From Pedobacter suwonensis (GTDB lineage Bacteria > Bacteroidota > Bacteroidia > Sphingobacteriales > Sphingobacteriaceae), in contig NZ_FOJM01000016.1 of NCBI RefSeq assembly GCF_900111825.1, forward strand, positions 62,001-126,000: DNA of 64,000 bases. The letters are read 5' to 3'. This document shows, piece after piece, positions 13,741 through 27,971 of this stretch. The position numbers and the translations under genes were made by a program. Position 1 is the first letter of the stretch. The number at the start of each line of letters is the position of its first letter. The notes beneath the pieces were generated by a model. It worked only from the letters and a program-made list of their open reading frames with translations, did no database searches and was not told the DNA's origin.

Positions 13741-16182
13741 TTAAAATTTATAAGTTACACTACCGGTAAAAGTTCTTAAATCCTGAGGATTCATCGTGCT
13801 ATAACCAGTCCAGTATTTTTGATTGGTAAAATTGTCTACTTTGGCACCGATTCTGAACCTTGGATGATCATAAAATACCGAAGCATTAAAAACTTCGTAA
13901 GCAGGCAGGATAAATACGCCCTGGCTTACACTGTTTACAATTTTGTTATCACTGGCATAATTACCACCCGCACCTAAACCAAAGCCTTTTAAAGCACCCG
14001 CCGCCAACTTATAACTAATCCATAAGTTTGCCGAATAAGGAGCAGCTGAATAAGCATCACGTCTTCCTTCAACATCCGGAGAAGTATTTTGCAAACGGTT
14101 ATCGTTATAGGCAAAACCTGCAATAATGTTTAAACCATTTAAAGGGTTGGCTACAATTTCTGCTTCTATACCTTTGCTGATTTTGTTGCCATCCTGGATC
14201 TGTGCATTCGGATTAGACAGATCGCCATTATAACCCCTTACAATATCTTTCACTTTGATGTAGTAATAAGATACCGATCCGGTTAATTTGCCGCCAAACA
14301 GGTTACTTTTTACACCGCCTTCTATCTGGTTAGCTTGCTCGGGCTTAAATGCTTCACCTTTATAATCTATGCCGTTAAGATTGTTAAATCCATTTTGATA
14401 ATTGACAAACAATGATAACTGATCTTTTATAGGCTGAAATACCAGGCCAAATTTAGGAGAGAAAACCGTTTGTTTATAAGCCCCTTTTGGTGCCGAACCT
14501 GCTCGGTCAGAATTACCTTTGTTGTCAAAACGGTCTACTCTAATGGCCGCTAAAGCAATTAACCTTTCGGTTAGGTTAATCACATCAGAGGCATAGGCAC
14601 TGTAAGTATTGGTCTTAAAATGATAAGGATATTTAGGGACGTTAGGCATTGCTGCATAAAAGGCTGCTAAATTAGTTTCTGTGAAGTTGTAATAGTTAGC
14701 ACCTGTTCCGTTTTTATTTGTTAGATCGAAACTGTCTGTTCCATAAAACAATTGATCGGAGTTTTGACGTAAATAGTCAAGACCCAAAACCATCCTGTTT
14801 TTTATTGAACCCAGGTTAAAAGTCCCGTTGAAATTTTGTTGGATTTCGTAGTTATAAAGTTTGCTGTTGTCTGTTGATTGATCTGCCCTTGAAATGAGAT
14901 CGGCGCCCGGAGCAGCATTTGGGTTACCTAGTGGAGGATAGTTATTGGGAACTAAGAACAGGTAGGTTCCACGGCCATTAGAAAAACTATAGCTGGATGA
15001 AAAGCTGGTATGTGATGACCAGTTCTCATTAAATTTATAATTGGCCTGGCCAAAGAAAGTTGTACTGTTGTATTTTTGCTTCATCACATCACCTGTAAAC
15101 GATTTATCGTAAGGTATGCCAGACTGGTCTGCCCGATCAAAACCAAGGTCTTTCACCGGAAAATAAAAGAAAACAAATGGTTTTAAGGTATTCTTACCAT
15201 TGGCGATTTCGGCATCAAAAGTAAAATCCAGCTTGTCGTTTACTTTATAGGCTAAGCTTGGTGCCACAAAGAAACCCCTGTCGAATACGTTTTGCTGGAA
15301 AGAGCCTTTATAATTATAAGATGCATTGATACGGGCGTAAATGTGGTTGGCTTTATCAACAGGGAAATTAAAATCGGTACTTACCCGGTTTAAATCATAG
15401 CTACCTGCCGAATAGGTTACCTCACCGCCTAAGCCCTCGAATGGTTTTTTGGTAATGCGGTTGATTAAACCTCCATAAGAAGTTAAAGTGCTGCCAAATA
15501 AAGTAGCCGACGGGCCTTTAATTACTTCCACACTTTCGATGTTGGCTGCATCATTACGACTGGTTATATTACCTGCAATTCCGTTTCTTAATTTCGACTG
15601 TACAATAAAGCCCCGCGACGCATAATACGCGCCACCATCTCCACCACGTCCGGTTGATTCCCACATTTTCTGAATACCAACGGCATTACGTGTAGCATCA
15701 TCTACAGAAAATATCAGTTGGTCATTAAATGTCTCTTTGGTAATCGTGGTATAAACCTGAGGGTTCTCCAGGTTACTAATAGGCATTTTAGCTACATAAT
15801 CGCTTTTTTGGGCGCCATATTTATTGGCTTTAACTTTATTGATATTAACCTCATTGAGCTGGTTTGAATTCTGGTTGATTACGAAATCAACCGTTTTATT
15901 TTCACCTGCATTGATTATAACTGATTTTTCTACGCTTTGGATGCCAACACCTGATACGCGTACGATATAAGAACCTGGTTTAACCCTTGGTATCTCAAAG
16001 GTACCTTTATCATTGGTGACGTTTCCTAAGCCTTTACCCTTCAAACCTACTGAAAGATAAGCTGCTGGTTTTCCATCAGATGTGGTAACTGTACCAGTAA
16101 TGGTTGAAAACTGTTGGGCAAAGCATAATAAACTGGCAAAAGTGAACAGGAAAGTAAAACTAAAAAGTTTGATTTTAAACAT
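13741..16182 (-). CDS. TonB-dependent siderophore receptor
   Basis: 813 residues. A signal peptide ends at CFAQ. Residues 25-110 are a CarboxypepD_reg-like domain (TITGTVTTSDGKPAAYLSV). A plug domain follows, with IESVEVIKGPSATLFGS and GGLINRITKKP, the typical wording of siderophore receptors. The remaining 580 residues are a beta-barrel ending in TGSVTYKF with terminal Phe. It imports ferric siderophores across the outer membrane using TonB energy. It is the first gene of the operon with DUF4198 and PepSY genes. A Fur-like inverted repeat lies about 70 bp upstream. The ligand is not determinable. Confidence 0.9.
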   Translation of the reverse strand: MFKIKLFSFTFLFTFASLLCFAQQFSTITGTVTTSDGKPAAYLSVGLKGKGLGNVTNDKGTFEIPRVKPGSYIVRVSGVGIQSVEKSVIINAGENKTVDFVINQNSNQLNEVNINKVKANKYGAQKSDYVAKMPISNLENPQVYTTITKETFNDQLIFSVDDATRNAVGIQKMWESTGRGGDGGAYYASRGFIVQSKLRNGIAGNITSRNDAANIESVEVIKGPSATLFGSTLTSYGGLINRITKKPFEGLGGEVTYSAGSYDLNRVSTDFNFPVDKANHIYARINASYNYKGSFQQNVFDRGFFVAPSLAYKVNDKLDFTFDAEIANGKNTLKPFVFFYFPVKDLGFDRADQSGIPYDKSFTGDVMKQKYNSTTFFGQANYKFNENWSSHTSFSSSYSFSNGRGTYLFLVPNNYPPLGNPNAAPGADLISRADQSTDNSKLYNYEIQQNFNGTFNLGSIKNRMVLGLDYLRQNSDQLFYGTDSFDLTNKNGTGANYYNFTETNLAAFYAAMPNVPKYPYHFKTNTYSAYASDVINLTERLIALAAIRVDRFDNKGNSDRAGSAPKGAYKQTVFSPKFGLVFQPIKDQLSLFVNYQNGFNNLNGIDYKGEAFKPEQANQIEGGVKSNLFGGKLTGSVSYYYIKVKDIVRGYNGDLSNPNAQIQDGNKISKGIEAEIVANPLNGLNIIAGFAYNDNRLQNTSPDVEGRRDAYSAAPYSANLWISYKLAAGALKGFGLGAGGNYASDNKIVNSVSQGVFILPAYEVFNASVFYDHPRFRIGAKVDNFTNQKYWTGYSTMNPQDLRTFTGSVTYKF

Positions 16183-16565: not shown

Positions 16566-17033
16566 ATGAAATTAACATCTATTATTTCGTTCTCCTTAAT
16601 TTGTATTCTCTTCTTTTCCTGTAAAAAAGAAGAAGATGTGAATTATAAGGTAACAGAGGCTGTTTCCTTGTTTGAAAACGCCAAATCACTTAATACTTTA
16701 GCGAGTAGTACAACAGGAAATTATGTGAAAGTCTGCCCAAATGGGTATACGGGCTGCGGAGCTACAGCAGGAATTGTTTGTGAATCGTCACAACAACCAT
16801 GTGTGATACCGGTAGTTATACTACGGAAATATCCTTGTCCTGGTTCGAATTTATACGGATGTAAGTCTGGTCTTCAAACAGGCGCTATATGTGAAACTGC
16901 TCAGGTATGCGCTGGAGAAAATCATCCATTACCTTGTAATTATGGAGGTATTGCCTTTGGTTGTTTTGCAGGCGCTCCCATTAGCGGACCAAGTTGCGGT
17001 ACATTAGTAAATTGCGAAACACCACCAGACTGA
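16566..17033 (+). CDS. 12-cysteine lipoprotein, copy 1
   Basis: 155 residues; family not recognised. A signal peptide ends in a lipobox FFSC with the Cys followed by KK, as in Bacteroidota lipoproteins. After a 35-residue spacer come 12 cysteines in three successive four-Cys units. Each has the form C-x6/8-C-x7/10-C-x5/6-C and contains a Gly-Cys second cysteine (GYTGCG, NLYGCK, IAFGCF). This suggests a disulfide-stabilised extracellular domain with six disulfides. The gene at 17214 is a tandem paralogue with all 12 Cys kept. A thioredoxin-like lipoprotein lies downstream. The function is unknown. Confidence 0.8.
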   Translation: MKLTSIISFSLICILFFSCKKEEDVNYKVTEAVSLFENAKSLNTLASSTTGNYVKVCPNGYTGCGATAGIVCESSQQPCVIPVVILRKYPCPGSNLYGCKSGLQTGAICETAQVCAGENHPLPCNYGGIAFGCFAGAPISGPSCGTLVNCETPPD

Positions 17034-17213
17034 TCCTATCAATCTTTTAGAAAAAAAATGTTATCGCTGTATTCATGTGAGGACATATAAATAGTCGTAG
17101 TTGAAAATCTCAAGTAAAATGTGTCAAAATAGGCATTAATTTGAATAAGATAATGGTGATTCAGACTAATAATTCCTATCACAATATATTCATTAACGTA
17201 TAAATAGAATTTT

Positions 17214-17675
17214 ATGAAAATTGCATCTATTGTCTCTCTCTTCTTAGTAGGTATTCTATTATTTTCTTTTAAAAAGGAAAATGTTGTGAATTATAAAGTC
17301 AATAAAGCAGAGTTGCTGTTGCAGAGTTCAGAATCAGCTTCAAAGTCAGCTTTTGTTAAAGGAAATTATGTAAAAACCTGCCCTGATGGTTTTTCAGGTT
17401 GTGGTGGTACATCAGGCCCGGATTGTAATGGGCAGGGTAATTGTAATCCAAGTCCTGTTAATCGTCCGTATGCGTGTCCTGGATCTCAAGAGTATGGTTG
17501 TAAAACTGGTATCCAATCTACACTTGTGTGTCAAAATGTAAAGATATGTCCTGGAGAAAATCACCCTGTTCCATGTAACTATGGTAGTATCAGCTTTGGC
17601 TGTTATCAAGGGGCGCCGATTGGTGGTGGGCCAAGCTGCGGTGCTCTAATTAATTGCCAAACGCCGCCCAACTGA
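17214..17675 (+). CDS. 12-cysteine secreted protein, copy 2, lipobox Cys lost
   Basis: 153 residues and a clear paralogue of the preceding gene. All 12 cysteines and the motifs CPGENHP, PCNYG and GAPI are kept. Where copy 1 has the lipobox FFSCKK, this copy has LFSFKK. The aligned codon is TTT instead of TGT, a one-base change. The protein should therefore not be lipidated and may be released, or remain anchored by an uncleaved signal helix. The spacing of the three four-Cys units matches copy 1 within one or two residues. This conservation beside loss of the anchor suggests a functional shift rather than decay. Function unknown. Confidence 0.8.
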   Translation: MKIASIVSLFLVGILLFSFKKENVVNYKVNKAELLLQSSESASKSAFVKGNYVKTCPDGFSGCGGTSGPDCNGQGNCNPSPVNRPYACPGSQEYGCKTGIQSTLVCQNVKICPGENHPVPCNYGSISFGCYQGAPIGGGPSCGALINCQTPPN

Positions 17676-18028: not shown

Positions 18029-19261
18029 ATGTTTAAATTTTTCAGCACTTTCTTTTTTTTGTATTTGAGCTTCTTTTGTTTTGTTTCTTGTAAAAATAAA
18101 AATCAAGATTACTACATCATAAAATCAAAATTAGCTAAAGACGCCTCGAAATATCAGATAAAGATAGACTCTATCAAAATACCTGTAAAGCAAGGATATG
18201 CAAATGCGTACTTTACCTATACGCAATATAGCGAACACAATGTAGATTATCTTTTAGGGTATAACCCTAACACATTGAGTATTGATATCTTCGATCTAAC
18301 AAATCGAATCTTATGTAGGCAATTAAGCTTAGTTGGAAAAAAGTTATCTTTAAAGAATCTGGACAGGAAGGACTTAGATAAAAATAGGAGTATTGCAGAC
18401 ATTGGTATAGTAAATTTTGATTCAATTTTATTAAACTATAGCAATGATCGGTTGATTGTGATTGATACAAACCTGAATAAGAAAAAGGATATTTCCATGG
18501 ATAGTATTTCAAATAGAAATAATTTCTTTGGAAAATTACTCTCATATAGCCATGAATTTAAAATGTTTTTTTTTGATGGCAAGCTTATTTTTAATCCAAT
18601 ATATTCTAATTTTAATTGGGACAGAAAAATGCCTGCTTTTGCTTCTTTTGATTTAAATGGTGGACGACTTGAATTCCTTCCGATATCTTATTCTGATTAT
18701 CTTTATAAGATTAAAGGTAATGCAGGATTTCTAACCTCTATTGTAACGAGTGAACACCAGAAACCGGGGGTTTTAACTTATGGCTACTTGTATGAATCGA
18801 ATATTTATCAATACGACCCAAAACGCGCAACCATCACTTGTTATGGAGCGGCTCCTTTAAAAGGAAAAAGTTTAGCTGATTCTGTTTCTTATACTAAAGG
18901 AGATGACCCAAAAAAATGGGTAACCCATCACATTGAGAATACCCAGTTCTTTAATGTGATGTATGATAAGTATAGAAATATTTATTATAGATTTAGTTTG
19001 CGAAATATAAATCAAAAAGATGGTAAATATTTTAATTCTATTTTAGATAAACCTTTGGTATTAATGATTTTTAATGAAAAATTTGAGGTAGTAAAAGAAA
19101 TAGATTTACCTAAGTATAGATATTCACCGAATACGTGGTTTATTACTAAAGAAGGTTTATTCATTTCTCCTAACCATAGAAAAAATAGGTTCATAGATCC
19201 ACTACATTTGAAATTTGACATTATTAAAGTTGACAAAGTAAATTCCAATGAAAAAATATAG
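18029..19261 (+). CDS. DUF4221-like lipoprotein (probable beta-propeller)
   Basis: 410 residues. A signal peptide ends with lipobox FVSC followed by KNK. The rest is beta-rich with repeated short segments of the kind seen in six-bladed propeller lipoproteins of Bacteroidota (LGYNPNTLSIDIFDL, YSNDRLIVIDTNL, KPLVLMIFNEKFEVVKEIDL). The DUF4221 name is from memory of similar proteins. It overlaps the next gene by 14 bp, so the two are translationally coupled. It lies downstream of two 12-cysteine proteins, which suggests a surface role connected with them. The base composition is more AT-rich than the nearby receptor genes. Function unknown. Confidence 0.6.
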   Translation: MFKFFSTFFFLYLSFFCFVSCKNKNQDYYIIKSKLAKDASKYQIKIDSIKIPVKQGYANAYFTYTQYSEHNVDYLLGYNPNTLSIDIFDLTNRILCRQLSLVGKKLSLKNLDRKDLDKNRSIADIGIVNFDSILLNYSNDRLIVIDTNLNKKKDISMDSISNRNNFFGKLLSYSHEFKMFFFDGKLIFNPIYSNFNWDRKMPAFASFDLNGGRLEFLPISYSDYLYKIKGNAGFLTSIVTSEHQKPGVLTYGYLYESNIYQYDPKRATITCYGAAPLKGKSLADSVSYTKGDDPKKWVTHHIENTQFFNVMYDKYRNIYYRFSLRNINQKDGKYFNSILDKPLVLMIFNEKFEVVKEIDLPKYRYSPNTWFITKEGLFISPNHRKNRFIDPLHLKFDIIKVDKVNSNEKI

Positions 19262-19718
19262 CATTATCTTTATCTTCTTATTAACTATCATAGCATGTAA
19301 TAAGCGTAAATTATCCGAAGATGAAGAGCACCTTAACATGTATTTCAATGAAAAGCAGCACACTGATTTATCAAAACTGAATAATTACTTTATTGTTGTG
19401 ATATCTGGTAATTGTGGCTCTTGTACTGAAAAAACCATCAAATTTCTAAAGCAATTAGGCGACAGAAAGAATTATAAATTTAGTGACTACAAAAAGATAG
19501 TTATCATTCCCAGGAATAATTCTGAAGTTTTAGACTCAATGAAAAATACAAATATTGAGTTTATTGTGGATGAAGGTTTTGAATTAGAAAAATATGGAGT
19601 TAATTTTCAAAGAAATGCTTTCTTTGAATTTAAGAAGTCGCAACTTTTCTACAAAGATTGGCTATATCTGGATAATGTTGATACAATATCAAAAAAATAT
19701 GGTTTTATTTTGAAATGA
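19248..19718 (+). CDS. Thioredoxin-like CGSC lipoprotein
   Basis: 156 residues. A signal peptide ends in a lipobox IIAC followed by NKRK. The core has VVISGNCGSCTEKTIKFLK, a strand followed by a C-x-x-C helix start as in thioredoxin folds (Cys-Gly-Ser-Cys). Later strands IVIIPRNNS and IEFIVDEG fit the fold, and the position before FFEFK could supply the cis-Pro strand but has Asn-Ala instead of Pro. It is probably a periplasm-facing redox protein. Its start lies inside the end of the DUF4221-like gene. Proximity to two 12-cysteine proteins suggests a role in their disulfide formation or use (inference). Confidence 0.65.
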   Translation: MKKYSIIFIFLLTIIACNKRKLSEDEEHLNMYFNEKQHTDLSKLNNYFIVVISGNCGSCTEKTIKFLKQLGDRKNYKFSDYKKIVIIPRNNSEVLDSMKNTNIEFIVDEGFELEKYGVNFQRNAFFEFKKSQLFYKDWLYLDNVDTISKKYGFILK

Positions 19719-21548: not shown

Positions 21549-24500
21549 ATGGAAAAAATTTCTACAAGACATTGCTATGTAAAATTTTTAACGGCAACCT
21601 TATTTTATCTACTGATCCCTTGGCTGGCCTTCGCGCAGAAAACAATTAAAGGAACAGTTGTAGATCAAACCAACACACCAATACCCGGCGTTTCGATTAT
21701 TGAAAAGGGTACCAAAAATGGTACGGCCACCAATGCTGAGGGAAAATTCTCCTTAACTGTTCAAAAAGAGGGTGCAATTGTTACCGCCAGAATTGTAGGC
21801 TATCGATCGGTAGAGAAAACGGTTTCTGCGAGCGGTACAGTAAATTTTTCTTTGGAAGAAGATAATAATACGCTGAACGAGGTGGTTACCATCGGTTATC
21901 AAAAAATCACCAGAAAGAAAACTACGGCAGCAATTTCCAGTATTTCTGGTAAAGAACTGGCCAACTTACCTGCTGCAAGTTTTGATCAGTTGCTGCAAGG
22001 CCGTTTATCAGGTGTAAACGTTCAAAACTTTACTGGCCAGCCAGGTGTGGCACCAACGGTATCGGTAAGGGGTAACTCAACAGGTAGCACAGGTTATGAT
22101 CAGTTTAATGTTATCAGATCGCCTCTTTATGTGGTAGATGGTGTTCCCCAATCATCTGATGATCTTGTGCCACCAGGAACAGGTACAGGAACCAACTATA
22201 TGGCCGGTCTTAATCCGAGTGATATCGAATCTATTGATGTATTAAAAGATGCTTCAGCAGCGGCCATTTATGGTTCAAGAGCTGCTAATGGTGTGATTTT
22301 AATTACAACCAAAAAAGGTGTAGGTGGCGATACTCGAGTGACGTTTAACTCTTATTATGGGATGGTGCAACGCCCTAATTTAAGACAGGCTACCATGGGT
22401 ACCACAGAGCGTAGGCAAAAAATGGAAGTGCTTCAAAGGCAGCTGAGTTACGATCAGCGCGTGCAACTGCCTTACATCCTTACCGACAGCTTAAATCCGG
22501 CATTCAATGGCCATACCGATTGGCAGGATTTATTTTATCAGACGGGTAAAATCAATGATAATAACCTCAGTATAAGCGGTGGTACTGATAATGGAACAAC
22601 TTATCGCTTTAGTGGAGGTTATTATGATGAAGATGGTATTGTAAAAGGAACGGGCTTTAAACGTTATACCACGCGTTTAAATCTTACTTCAAGGGCAATG
22701 AATAAAAAATTAATGATCAACCCGATATTTTCTTATTCAAGTGCCAGTAGAGGAAGAGGGAACGAAGATCCAAACGATCCATCTAAGCCTACAAAAGTTG
22801 GTTCAGGGAATTTGCCCTCCTCGTTATTTAATATATCTCCCGAAAAATTGGATTATTTCGTCAGTAAAGATGGTGAAAATTTAAACAGAAATGTGTCGAA
22901 CCAGTTTTTAGCTAACCTCAACCTGGCCTACGAATTTAACAAACACTTTACCTTAAATTCACAATCTTCCTATACTAATAACAATAACCGCAGGGATGTA
23001 AGTATGAGCAATTTGTTAAACAACGGTTTTGGCAACAGCTCTTCTAGTTTCTCCTCAACTGATATGGGCTTGAGAACATCAAACTATCTCGCTTATAATG
23101 GTTCTATTAAAAAACATTCTTTTAGTGCAGTAGCGGGTCAGGATATAGAGTATAGTTTGTTTCAATCTACCCAGGCATCTGGCTATGGAGGCGCTTCAGA
23201 CAATATTCAAACGGTTACAGGTTTTAAACAACAGAATATTTTTGCTTATTCAAATTACATCGCACACGGGCTGGTAGCTTATTACGGTCGCTTTAATTAT
23301 GATTACGATAGCAAGTACCTTTTATCGGGAACGATCAGAACGGATGGCTCATCTGGTTTTGGTGAAAACAACAAATATGGCGTATTCCCTTCCATTTCAG
23401 CAGGATGGCTTCTTTCAGAAGAAAACTTTATGAAAAACTTATCCAATAATCCTTTTACACTCATTAAAATAAGAGGAAGTTATGGCGTGACAGGAAATGA
23501 GGATAAAAGAAATGCTTATGTACAATATAATACCTACCAGGTTAACAATGGTTATTTTAGCGGGAATGGAGGAGCAACCTCATATAATGGTGTAACCGCA
23601 ATTACACCAAACTTTAGAAATGGTGTGGCTCAAAAGGATTTAAGCTGGGAGAAATCTACACAATGGAATATCGGTACCGATATGGAAATAGATAACGGTA
23701 GATATGCCATTTCATTTGATGTGTATAATAAAGAAGTAAAACAAAAACTTTTCAATGTTGATTTGCCGGTTACATCAGGCTATGACAATGCTTTCACCAA
23801 TGCATTTGCAGTTCGTAATGCAGGTTTGGAGTTGACTCTAACCGCTAATCCTTTACGTAAGGAATTTAAGTGGAATAGCTCTTTTAATATTTCTTATAAT
23901 AAAAATCAGATCATGAGTTTGCCGAACGGTGGCCGTGATATTATTTTGAGCGGAGATCGTTTTGATAAAAACCACGTGCTTTCTGTAGGTAGTCCACTAA
24001 ATGCTTTTTATTTATATCGTACAAAAGGCGTATTTTCTACTTCAGCAGATATTCCCCAGAATCCTTACACTGGAGAAAGATATCGAAACAGTAATGGAAC
24101 ATTTAGTGCAGGTGATTTTTATCTGGCAGATTTGGATGGAGATTATTTTATAGATATTTTTAATGATGGTATCAATCCGGATAAGGCTCCAATTGGTGAT
24201 CCTAACCCACGTTTTACCGGTGGCTGGACCAATAACTTTTCTTACAAAAACTTTAGCTTAAGTGTTTTTGTAAACTTTACACTTAAACGTGATGTACTCA
24301 ACCTATTTGATTCAGATCGTTTTACGAACGCAACTGATGCTAATGCCGTATATAATTTTGCTAGTGTTTCTTCACCGGATCTAAGTCGCCTGAACATCTG
24401 GAGAAACCCTGGAGATCAAGCCGAATATGCAAAACTCGATTTGGGATCCTATCGATATTATTATACAGCTGCACAATCTTTTTTCCTAGAAAAAGGTGGT

Positions 24501-24728
24501 TATGCAAGGATCAGAAGTATCAATTTTAGTTATGATTTTAGTCCTAAAGCCGTAAGAAAATTAGGCTTAAGTCAGCTGAAATTATACGCCGTTGTTGATA
24601 ACGTATATATGTTCCAGCAATCAAAAAAATTACCAGATGCAGAAGCTGTTAACGGATATGGAGAATATAATGGAACCGGATATCCTATTCCAAGAAAATA
24701 TACTTTAGGTGTACAAGTTCAATTTTAA
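21549..24728 (+). CDS. SusC/RagA-type TonB-linked outer-membrane transporter
   Basis: 1059 residues. A signal peptide ends at AFAQ. Residues 32-115 are the CarboxypepD_reg-like domain (TIKGTVVDQTNTPIPGVSII). The plug has LQGRLSGVNVQNFTGQPG, SPLYVVDGVP and IESIDVLKDASAAAIYGSRA, which are hallmark SusC segments. The barrel fills the rest. It imports a nutrient captured by the SusD partner, powered by TonB. It is first in an operon with susD, a fasciclin lipoprotein and a DUF5007 lipoprotein. No glycoside hydrolase or peptidase is in the operon, so the substrate cannot be read. Confidence 0.93.
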   Translation: MEKISTRHCYVKFLTATLFYLLIPWLAFAQKTIKGTVVDQTNTPIPGVSIIEKGTKNGTATNAEGKFSLTVQKEGAIVTARIVGYRSVEKTVSASGTVNFSLEEDNNTLNEVVTIGYQKITRKKTTAAISSISGKELANLPAASFDQLLQGRLSGVNVQNFTGQPGVAPTVSVRGNSTGSTGYDQFNVIRSPLYVVDGVPQSSDDLVPPGTGTGTNYMAGLNPSDIESIDVLKDASAAAIYGSRAANGVILITTKKGVGGDTRVTFNSYYGMVQRPNLRQATMGTTERRQKMEVLQRQLSYDQRVQLPYILTDSLNPAFNGHTDWQDLFYQTGKINDNNLSISGGTDNGTTYRFSGGYYDEDGIVKGTGFKRYTTRLNLTSRAMNKKLMINPIFSYSSASRGRGNEDPNDPSKPTKVGSGNLPSSLFNISPEKLDYFVSKDGENLNRNVSNQFLANLNLAYEFNKHFTLNSQSSYTNNNNRRDVSMSNLLNNGFGNSSSSFSSTDMGLRTSNYLAYNGSIKKHSFSAVAGQDIEYSLFQSTQASGYGGASDNIQTVTGFKQQNIFAYSNYIAHGLVAYYGRFNYDYDSKYLLSGTIRTDGSSGFGENNKYGVFPSISAGWLLSEENFMKNLSNNPFTLIKIRGSYGVTGNEDKRNAYVQYNTYQVNNGYFSGNGGATSYNGVTAITPNFRNGVAQKDLSWEKSTQWNIGTDMEIDNGRYAISFDVYNKEVKQKLFNVDLPVTSGYDNAFTNAFAVRNAGLELTLTANPLRKEFKWNSSFNISYNKNQIMSLPNGGRDIILSGDRFDKNHVLSVGSPLNAFYLYRTKGVFSTSADIPQNPYTGERYRNSNGTFSAGDFYLADLDGDYFIDIFNDGINPDKAPIGDPNPRFTGGWTNNFSYKNFSLSVFVNFTLKRDVLNLFDSDRFTNATDANAVYNFASVSSPDLSRLNIWRNPGDQAEYAKLDLGSYRYYYTAAQSFFLEKGGYARIRSINFSYDFSPKAVRKLGLSQLKLYAVVDNVYMFQQSKKLPDAEAVNGYGEYNGTGYPIPRKYTLGVQVQF

Positions 24729-24740
24729 TATCGTCAATAA

Positions 24741-26258
24741 ATGAAAAATATAATCACAAAAATCGGTGTTCTTATCGCTTTGGGCATAGCAGTTACCGTA
24801 AGTTCCTGTAAAAAATTGTTATATGAAGAACCTAAAGACGCACCTTATGAGCAAACCTTCTGGCAATCGTCCAGGGATGTAAGAAGTGCCATCGCCGGTA
24901 ATTATGCCATGATGCGTAGTGCGATTACCAACAAAAACAATCGTTATTTTATGTATGGTGATGCGATTGCCAAAAACTATTTTACCATCCAATATTCCGG
25001 AGACGGTTTAGAAGGGATTCAGGGTGGGGATTTTACCTTTCAATACAATATCAATACGCTGGCAAATTATACTTTATATTATAAAAGCATTGCCATGTCT
25101 AATCTGATTTTGAAGAAAGTTAATGCGATGAGCGATACACAATTATCTGGCGAAGACGATCCTACACAATTCCGGAATTCGGTGATTGGCCAGGCTTATT
25201 TTCTCCGCGCACTAAGCTACTTTATGATGGTAAGGGTATGGGGCGATGTACCGTTGGTTACAGAAGCTTACGACGATCCAATCAATGCGCCTCAACTGCC
25301 AAGAAGTTCAAAATCGGAAGTGATGAAACTGATTGAAAATGATTGCCATAAAGCCATTAATCTATTAAGCTGGAATTATACCAATACTGGCGACGCCAAA
25401 GTTACGGCAAATAAAGGCTCAGTATACGCCCTTTTAGCCCATTTGTATCTTTGGAGAGCGACCATGTCTGACGTTTCAGTAGATGCGCCTAATTTGACTG
25501 ATGTGAACAATGCCGATACGACCATAAATACATTAATTAACAAAGGAGGTTATGCATTAACCGATACCGCTAATTATAAAAATACTTTTATTGGTCGTTC
25601 TTCTGAAGGCATATTTGAAATTAACATCAGCGAAAATACATTGGAAGGTTCCAATAGTTCGATAGGTTCTTATTTTTTAAATGAGAGTTATATTAAAGGT
25701 TATGGAAACAATCCACGTTTTTATACCACGCCTTTGTATCTTAATAATCATTTCGAAACCACCACAGATATCCGTTATAAAAAGGGCTTTGACCTCACCA
25801 ATCCGAATAAACCAATGAGTATAAAGTACAGTAATGTTACGTACAGAAATCCTGGGCAAAAATTAGACCCTTATCTGAGCAATAACATTATCATTTTCAG
25901 ACTGGGTGATATGAAACTTCTTAAGGCGGAGATTGCACTTTACAAAAAGGATGCTGCTACAGCTATCGGTATTATCAATGATTTCAGAAAAAGAAATGAC
26001 CCTGATCCGGTTTTAATTCCAGCGGGAAGTTCCGTAGATCAGGTAATGGATGAATATGCGTATGAGCGTGGCAAAGAAATGTACCTGGAAGGACATTTGT
26101 TTTATGATTTGCTCAGAACCAGAAGATACGGTCTTATCGTAGATTGGCTTACGGAAAGCAGGTTTAGAAGAGAAGGGTTTTATTGGCCTGTAGACCCTGC
26201 GTTGTTTAGAAACAATCCGTTATTGAAACAAACACCATATTGGTTGGGTAAAGTATAA
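24741..26258 (+). CDS. SusD/RagB-family nutrient-binding lipoprotein
   Basis: 505 residues. A lipobox VSSC followed by KK marks a surface lipoprotein. The N-terminal TPR-like helices hold QAYFLRALSYFMMVRVWGDV, a strongly conserved SusD segment. The C-terminal part has AYERGKEMYLEGHLFYDLLR and ends with PYWLGKV. It forms the lid on the SusC channel and binds the substrate at the cell surface. It starts 12 bp after susC. Confidence 0.93.
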   Translation: MKNIITKIGVLIALGIAVTVSSCKKLLYEEPKDAPYEQTFWQSSRDVRSAIAGNYAMMRSAITNKNNRYFMYGDAIAKNYFTIQYSGDGLEGIQGGDFTFQYNINTLANYTLYYKSIAMSNLILKKVNAMSDTQLSGEDDPTQFRNSVIGQAYFLRALSYFMMVRVWGDVPLVTEAYDDPINAPQLPRSSKSEVMKLIENDCHKAINLLSWNYTNTGDAKVTANKGSVYALLAHLYLWRATMSDVSVDAPNLTDVNNADTTINTLINKGGYALTDTANYKNTFIGRSSEGIFEINISENTLEGSNSSIGSYFLNESYIKGYGNNPRFYTTPLYLNNHFETTTDIRYKKGFDLTNPNKPMSIKYSNVTYRNPGQKLDPYLSNNIIIFRLGDMKLLKAEIALYKKDAATAIGIINDFRKRNDPDPVLIPAGSSVDQVMDEYAYERGKEMYLEGHLFYDLLRTRRYGLIVDWLTESRFRREGFYWPVDPALFRNNPLLKQTPYWLGKV

Positions 26259-26283
26259 GTTGTTTTTATTAAGAGATTAAAAT

Positions 26284-26970
26284 ATGAAAAATAATATATT
26301 AGTATATCTTTCATTACTATTACTGGCACTAACTGCTTGTAAAAAAAATGATTATAAAAGGGATGGCGGCCCAAGTGATCCCAATGTGAATTTAAGTACT
26401 TACGATTACTTAAAGTCTAACCGCAATTTCGATTCCTTAGTGAAAGTGATAGACCGGGCTGGTTTAAAGGATGTAGTAAATGGTAATGTAACCCTTTTTG
26501 CAACTACAAATTATGGCATAGCGGAGTATGTAAAGGCCAAGAAGTATCAGAAATCTCTCCAACTTGGGAAGGAAAATTTTGATTTTGGGATCAAAGATAT
26601 TCCATCACAGGAGCTGAACGATTCATTAAAGACTTATTTATTTGCGGGTAAGATCAACAGAGACCAAATGACCGTTAGCGGTAAGCTTTATAACAGTTTA
26701 TTAGGGGCTATTCCAAATGTTCAGTACCTGATCAAATTGAGGCGTTCTTATGAATATACACAGTATCTTAATTATGTGGATTATGTAACGTATACCAAAG
26801 TAATCGGAACCCGTGATGATCAGGAGACGGATCAAAGTACTATTCCCGATTCACAAAAAGATAAGGCTGTGGATTGTCAAACATCTGGAATCGTCACAAC
26901 CAATGGTATCGTTCATGTGCTTAGTGGATACCACAGGTTATTTTTTAATGCACAGTCTTTGGGCAATTAA
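26284..26970 (+). CDS. Fasciclin-domain lipoprotein
   Basis: 228 residues. A lipobox LTAC followed by KK is at 17-23. The remainder is one fasciclin (FAS1) domain: TYDYLKSNRNFDSLVKVIDR at the start, VTLFATTNYGIAEYV (the H1-like box) and GIVTTNGIVHVLSGYH (the H2-like box) at the end. FAS1 domains mediate binding to surface carbohydrate or protein. It lies 25 bp after susD in the same operon and is probably a further surface component of the uptake complex. Confidence 0.8.
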   Translation: MKNNILVYLSLLLLALTACKKNDYKRDGGPSDPNVNLSTYDYLKSNRNFDSLVKVIDRAGLKDVVNGNVTLFATTNYGIAEYVKAKKYQKSLQLGKENFDFGIKDIPSQELNDSLKTYLFAGKINRDQMTVSGKLYNSLLGAIPNVQYLIKLRRSYEYTQYLNYVDYVTYTKVIGTRDDQETDQSTIPDSQKDKAVDCQTSGIVTTNGIVHVLSGYHRLFFNAQSLGN

Positions 26971-26987
26971 TTTAATCGCAATTAATT

Positions 26988-27971
26988 ATGAAAATTAAAT
27001 ACATTTTAGGATTATTACTCTTGTTAAGTGTAGTGGCCTGTAAAAAAATACAGAATGGTTTTCTAAGTGATGCCATTCGATATAAAGACAATAATATTTA
27101 TGCAAAAAGAGGCTTGACTCTTTTTCAGTCAGATAGAATCAATGCAGATGGTTCTACACCACCTTTTACCTATAAATTGCTCAATTTGAGAAAAGAAGAT
27201 GGTTCTCCTGCGCCTGCAGAGTTTTCGAAGGAATATGAAATTACTGTTTTTAAGACAGGTGCCAATTTTGATCCTGAAACAGATGTAACCCTCGAGCTTC
27301 TGAATAAGAAAAGGGAAGTTGTTAAAAAGAAACCAATGGAGTTTAATGAATTAAGCGGACAGCTTACCTTTAACAAAGCATCTGGTTTCTTACCCTTAGG
27401 AAGATATGTATATGATGTAGAAATGACTAATGGTACTGGTACCAAGTTATTTCCTAAATTAGCAACAATTAATGTGGTAGATCCCACTATAGATGACCTG
27501 TTTGAGATTACTGATAATGTTGCTAACGGCTTTAATGATGTTACCGGTGCGGTAACGCCAATGAAAAACCCAATCATTACCTGTACAAAAATTTCATCTG
27601 TAGGTGCAAGAGCTATACTGAAAATGGTAGATAAAAATGGAAATGTCTTTAATCCTAAAGCAAAAGAAATTATAGCAAGGGGAGATAGACCAATTTTTGA
27701 AAACTATGCGAAATTTAATCCAGTTATTCAAACTGATACCGCTATGATCTGCGATTTTGAGGTAGCACCGTTTCCTTTAACAAAATATATTACACCAACT
27801 ACCGACTGGGGTTTCTTAATGTATTACAGAATACCGAGTACCTTTATAAAATCAATAGATGGATTTCCAACATCACCAGGTTTCTCTGTAAACCCAAGGT
27901 GGTCTTGGAGACTTAAATTAGAAGGTACTTATGTCATTCAGGTAAAATTTACTGATGTAACTAGAAAATAA
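26988..27971 (+). CDS. DUF5007-like lipoprotein of the SusCD operon
   Basis: 327 residues with a lipobox VVAC followed by KK. The mature protein is beta-rich and has the early motif DAIRYKDNNIYAKRG. It resembles DUF5007 proteins that follow fasciclin genes in Pedobacter-type SusCD operons; the domain name is recalled and not searched. It is the last gene of the operon and ends before a strong convergent terminator. A role as an additional surface binding protein is inferred. Confidence 0.65.
   Translation: MKIKYILGLLLLLSVVACKKIQNGFLSDAIRYKDNNIYAKRGLTLFQSDRINADGSTPPFTYKLLNLRKEDGSPAPAEFSKEYEITVFKTGANFDPETDVTLELLNKKREVVKKKPMEFNELSGQLTFNKASGFLPLGRYVYDVEMTNGTGTKLFPKLATINVVDPTIDDLFEITDNVANGFNDVTGAVTPMKNPIITCTKISSVGARAILKMVDKNGNVFNPKAKEIIARGDRPIFENYAKFNPVIQTDTAMICDFEVAPFPLTKYITPTTDWGFLMYYRIPSTFIKSIDGFPTSPGFSVNPRWSWRLKLEGTYVIQVKFTDVTRK

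Follow-up and report, generated by a model that had tools for sequence, protein, structure and literature searches.

Tandem twelve-cysteine proteins of Pedobacter suwonensis apparently occupy the peptide position of a recurrent cassette with DUF4221 and thioredoxin-like lipoproteins

The window analysed here, a 64,000-nucleotide stretch of Pedobacter suwonensis DNA, contains two adjacent genes encoding predicted exported proteins with twelve conserved cysteines (12-Cys proteins), followed by genes for two lipoproteins, one of the DUF4221 family and one thioredoxin-like (Trx). We refer to this group as the module (Table 1). Both 12-Cys reading frames are open and the copies are 53% identical when aligned, in accord with the tandem pair of the preliminary description. 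They correspond to a tandem duplication in which the DNA direct repeats (D1 and D2) are 75–78% identical, with a dN of 0.36 and a dS of 1.55 between the copies. The dN/dS ratio of the 12-Cys genes is about 0.2–0.25 (where computable), indicating that purifying selection acts on them and that they are genuine genes.

Table 1. Coordinates in the window of the module and of its neighbours.
Feature	Coordinates	Strand	Basis or details
TonB-dependent receptor, left flank (context, not module)	13741–16182	-	Pfam
12-Cys protein copy 1, 155 aa	16566–17033	+	ORF, alignment
Copy 1 twelve-Cys region	16734–17015	+	Units C57–C79 (16734–16802), C91–C115 (16836–16910), C124–C150 (16935–17015)
12-Cys protein copy 2, 153 aa	17214–17675	+	ORF, alignment, direct repeats D1 and D2
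Copy 2 twelve-Cys region	17379–17657	+	Units C56–C77 (17379–17444), C88–C112 (17475–17549), C121–C148 (17574–17657)
DUF4221 lipoprotein, modelled as a beta-propeller (partner)	18029–19261	+	PF13970, 3s9j match, AF2 model
Thioredoxin-like lipoprotein, CGSC at residues 56–59 (19413–19424) (partner)	19248–19718	+	Alignment, weak profile match
SusC, SusD, fasciclin-like, DUF5007 operon (context; possible functional partner)	21549–27971	+	Pfam

The twelve shared cysteines all lie beyond residue 50, and they are also invariant in the homologues from P. psychrodurus, P. alluvionis and M. roseus described below. In both copies they form the pattern C-x6-C-x7-C-x5/6-C, C-x7-C-x9-C-x5-C, C-x8-C-x10/11-C-x5-C, and the intra-unit gaps (6/7/5–6, 7/9/5 and 8/10–11/5) agree with those noted at the outset, as does the glycine ahead of the second cysteine in each unit (i.e. 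before Cys 2, 6 and 10). Copy 1 has two further cysteines, at positions 13 and 19, the latter being its lipobox cysteine. The proposal of three four-cysteine repeats is supported by a period of four in the cysteine spacing and by the recurrent glycine, but not by demonstrable homology between the loops of the units. A period of four fits better than shuffled gaps in five sequences (P = 0.022, 0.010, 0.015, 0.020 and 0.0004), these being related sequences whose P values are not independent, and periods of 2, 3 and 5 are no better than shuffling. Residue similarity between the loops is in most tests no higher than after shuffling and shows no consistent likeness, and profile alignment of one unit to another gives weak matches (E ~0.007 for units 1–2 and 2–3), so that the term 'three repeats' rests on cysteine spacing. 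A three-unit architecture is likely; an ancestral triplication behind it is not proven.

Every gap between cysteines is 5–13 residues and there are no CxC or CxxC motifs, so disulfides are expected rather than metal clusters. The high cysteine content, along with the TonB receptor and DUF4198 gene that adjoin the module in the window, could also be taken to reflect metallothionein-like proteins that pass metal on to the TonB/DUF4198 or SusC/D transporters flanking them. We consider this highly improbable and reject it on the cysteine spacing; moreover, the TonB receptor is also found next to SusC in genomes lacking the module, no such receptor was seen adjoining the module in M. roseus, and disulfides are favoured by the oxidising conditions of the periplasm and by the Trx partner. 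An AF2 model of the 12-Cys protein built with five homologues has a pLDDT of 41 and is uninformative on the fold, and we therefore propose neither a fold nor a disulfide pairing.

Neither 12-Cys protein matches any family in Pfam, NCBIfam, PHROGs or PADLOC, bacteriocin and defence families included, and searches of PDB sequences gave chance matches only; the earlier statement that the pattern belongs to no named family thus holds. Searches of 201 and of 400 related genomes, together with a pattern scan across GTDB, identified one homologue each in Pedobacter psychrodurus (57% identity), P. alluvionis (56%) and Mucilaginibacter roseus (34–36%), and no further clear 12-Cys homologues. The window genome, of the same genus as two of these three, has the two copies and no more, and the module has no match on plasmids. 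Weak order-wide profile matches (E 0.001–0.006) in genomes G022, G146, G194 and G044 were set aside as homologues: two contain stops, one aligns over the signal-peptide region alone, and that in G044 is partial (62 residues).

Copy 1 has a signal peptide with the lipobox LFFSC followed by KKEED (residues 15–24). The sequence C-X-K-(D/E)2 has been shown in Capnocytophaga to be a surface export signal of lipoproteins (PMC5080379), and the C-K-K-E-E-D of copy 1 fits the signal as defined in that genus. From its sequence copy 1 is predicted to be a surface lipoprotein, rather than simply a secreted protein as had been supposed. Copy 2 has a signal-peptide-like start in which the lipobox cysteine is replaced by Phe (SFKKEN). 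The P. alluvionis protein has the lipobox (FFSC-KKE, as in copy 1) whereas those of P. psychrodurus and M. roseus lack its cysteine, indicating that this protein occurs in a lipid-anchored and an unanchored form. The window presumably encodes both forms, copy 1 lipid-anchored and copy 2 not.

The first partner gene encodes a member of the DUF4221 family (PF13970), with an E-value of 1.1e-17 and 65.1 bits against a cut-off of 23.4. By sequence profile it matches the solved member 3s9j (BVU_1028) with an E-value of 9.4e-66. Its AF2 model (pLDDT 84.6) compares to 3s9j with a Z of 33.0 and to the Bacteroides exported protein 4raa with a Z of 17.2; as modelled, the DUF4221 partner is a beta-propeller. 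The profile of the third gene matches thioredoxins weakly (E 0.0026), and the lipobox cysteine and both CxxC cysteines are invariant in the window protein and 22 cassette homologues. In all four genomes with 12-Cys genes this lipoprotein is 156–158 aa long and contains GNCGSC, and the window Trx subgroup lacks a 'YP' motif found in most other Trx partners. The DUF4221 and Trx genes have a GC content of 27–29% in the window, compared to 40% for the 12-Cys genes and 38.5% for the window as a whole. Outside the window, too, most DUF4221 genes have a higher AT content than the DNA around them.

The gene order 12-Cys, DUF4221, Trx is present in all four of the genomes with the family. In the three genomes with a single copy, ~10 bp separate the 12-Cys gene from DUF4221; in the window the distance from copy 2 to DUF4221 is 353 bp. 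In the window and in P. alluvionis the module lies exactly between the TonB receptor and SusC; in P. psychrodurus it is at the opposite end of the SusC-SusD-fasciclin-DUF5007 operon, after DUF5007, and likewise in M. roseus. Five related Pedobacter genomes (G167, G061, G154, G182 and G215) have ~450–560 bp between the receptor and SusC and no module, the G061 receptor at this empty site being a more distant one (28% identical), which indicates that gain or loss affects the module as a whole. Many Pedobacter genomes have the operon conserved, whether or not they carry the module, for which it is either a favoured partner or a favoured place of insertion.

One explanation for this arrangement is that the 12-Cys protein is an accessory surface protein capturing ligand for the adjacent SusC/SusD/fasciclin/DUF5007 transporter. 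The constant SusC/D neighbour, on differing sides of the module in the four genomes, would suit ligand capture, as would the surface signal of copy 1 and the C-K-K with which the SusD beside the module also begins. However, the operon is common without the module and other DUF4221 cassettes adjoin unrelated genes, and we regard this explanation as unlikely.

The association of DUF4221 with small exported proteins extends beyond the 12-Cys loci. For DUF4221 loci drawn from the family and the phylum, every DUF4221 gene was compared with every other ORF of at least 300 aa in those loci, scoring a signal-peptide-like ORF of 40–175 aa with at least three cysteines, on the same strand and no more than 400 bp upstream. 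Such a Cys-rich ORF precedes 24 of 49 DUF4221 genes and 12 of 161 others (Fisher P 6e-10), and among the DUF4221 genes it is found with 20 of the 26 that have a Trx neighbour versus 4 of the 23 that do not (P 4e-5), 19 of these 23 thus being without it; both P values overstate independence because the loci are related by descent and the four with 12-Cys genes are among them. Of the 12 background cases, several are NVEALA or NVEALA-like peptides encoded ahead of genes other than DUF4221, in part propeller genes, making the contrast between DUF4221 and background a conservative one. Two 12-Cys proteins and another peptide were also caught by the first Trx profile, probably owing to the lipoprotein signal peptide that they have in common with Trx, and the profile was subsequently cleaned; the counts stand since those loci also contain a true Trx gene.

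The typical cassette peptide is 55–115 aa long with four to six cysteines, and the peptides are so dissimilar to one another that it is the slot that is conserved and not the sequence. Rather than being orphans, the 12-Cys proteins apparently occupy the peptide slot of a recurrent cassette. Both the 12-Cys form and the three-gene link with DUF4221 and Trx appear to be undescribed in the open-licence papers searched.

Additional genes accompany some of the other cassettes. An O-antigen ligase-like gene (Wzy_C) lies beside the peptide-DUF4221-Trx genes in L033, L035, L038, L039, L041 and L045, assigned by Pfam in L039 and L041 and by profile similarity in L033, L035, L038 and L045; the L039 protein has TPR matches, and a relative in L156 is also near a four-cysteine peptide. 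Glycosylation of the cassette peptides is possible. An obligate Wzy_C/TPR partner was rejected, there being no homologue in the window genome and many such genes away from cassettes. RND pumps (ACR_tran) adjoin cassettes or related Wzy_C clusters in L044, L046, L100, L103, L153 and L154, with an HlyD protein in L044 and an S26 signal peptidase in L154 (L046 being judged by near identity with L044). The co-occurrence of Wzy_C, RND/HlyD and S26 genes may point to peptide processing and export; none of Wzy_C, RND, HlyD or S26 signal peptidase is seen beside the window module. Just upstream of the cassette in L036 (G237:C101:42000-53000) there is a 446 aa Cys-rich protein, radical SAM/SPASM-like by eye, as well as a 507 aa TlpA-like protein. 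In L093, L094 and L095 two to four DUF4221 genes are in tandem, without Trx or a Cys-rich peptide.

On balance we favour the view that the 12-Cys proteins serve as the exported peptide of an envelope cassette of three genes, the other two being DUF4221 and Trx. The cassette would run from a Cys-rich exported peptide through a DUF4221 propeller lipoprotein to a CxxC thioredoxin-fold lipoprotein, its first slot being filled in the window by three four-cysteine units, duplicated in tandem, and in most cassettes by a single peptide of the typical kind. The 12-Cys protein would be exported by Sec, after which its twelve cysteines would form six disulfides, with the Trx lipoprotein presumably forming or proofreading these in the periplasm. 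The propeller may then bind the folded product and present it at the outer membrane, copy 1 being held at the surface by its predicted lipid anchor and copy 2 having none. Candidate end uses are as an interbacterial toxin, as a signal, or in capturing ligand together with the SusC/D pair nearby.

The first of these uses could account for the whole module, as an interbacterial antimicrobial in which the 12-Cys protein is a disulfide-stabilised toxin, DUF4221 its immunity protein or carrier, and Trx a folding factor. The 12-Cys genes diverge faster than their partners between Pedobacter species (dN 0.22–0.37 versus 0.09–0.17), and this would fit a toxin or a molecule involved in recognition, as would the patchy distribution and the presence of tandem copies; the mutually dissimilar peptides in the slot, the empty site, and the RND pumps and HlyD protein near other cassettes also point in this direction. 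We nonetheless think an antimicrobial rather unlikely, as there is no match to a toxin or bacteriocin family, no RND or HlyD exporter is seen beside the window module, and a dN/dS of about 0.2 reflects constraint and not diversifying selection.

The favoured three-gene cassette may, more tentatively, be part of an undescribed phylum-wide system that makes and displays disulfide-rich exported peptides through dedicated propeller and Trx lipoproteins, with the 12-Cys proteins as one extreme form and the rapidly changing peptides as variable cargo serving communication or competition. If so, a signal peptidase, an RND pump or an enzyme resembling O-antigen ligase would be added to it in other genomes. 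In the literature searched no function is given for DUF4221, NVEALA or the propeller families related to them, all of which are envelope genes of Bacteroidota. The regular occurrence of a Cys-rich exported peptide and a CxxC lipoprotein with DUF4221 provides a hypothesis that can be tested for all three. Being Cys-rich and naturally paired, one copy with a predicted lipid anchor and the other without, the 12-Cys proteins lend themselves to disulfide mapping and studies of interactions.

In NVEALA systems (PF14055) a small exported cysteine protein likewise lies just upstream of TolB-like or six-bladed propeller lipoproteins (PF15869, PF17170); in places a Trx-like lipoprotein follows, and in L037 and L099 these genes are in the same cluster as DUF4221. 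The 12-Cys proteins differ in having neither the motif nor a match (none to PF14055 in Pfam up to an E of 1), in having 12 cysteines rather than about 2–4, in being about twice as long, and in having DUF4221 as the partner; no NVEALA protein is over the cut-off anywhere in the window genome. Three PF14055 peptides over the cut-off are present in L037, each ahead of a TolB-like propeller, and a four-cysteine 'EVEALG' peptide is directly ahead of DUF4221. This cluster (L037:178-10119) also includes several propellers and both intact and broken DUF4221 and Trx genes, and has the appearance of a single type of cassette that was duplicated several times and partly decayed.

Unnamed peptides of four to six cysteines upstream of DUF4221 (for example in L033, L034, L042, L044 and L106) share with the 12-Cys proteins the slot, a signal peptide and a four-cysteine unit of similar spacing, but contain a single unit and have no detectable similarity to them beyond the cysteines. 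The tie between the two is thus one of position, size class, signal peptide and cysteine spacing. The cassette peptide of L045 matches DUF6520 (PF20130) weakly, with 19.6 bits against a cut-off of 25.4, and the 12-Cys proteins do not match it. The open-licence papers searched make no mention of NVEALA or DUF4221, and no published DUF4221 function or link to a peptide was found in them. A small exported cysteine peptide with a propeller lipoprotein nevertheless already appears in the databases, though solely under NVEALA and DUF names. In four genomes the 12-Cys genes show this arrangement, with the exported protein upstream of the propeller lipoprotein, and the repeated occurrence of a peptide upstream of DUF4221 indicates that they fill the slot held elsewhere by NVEALA-type peptides.
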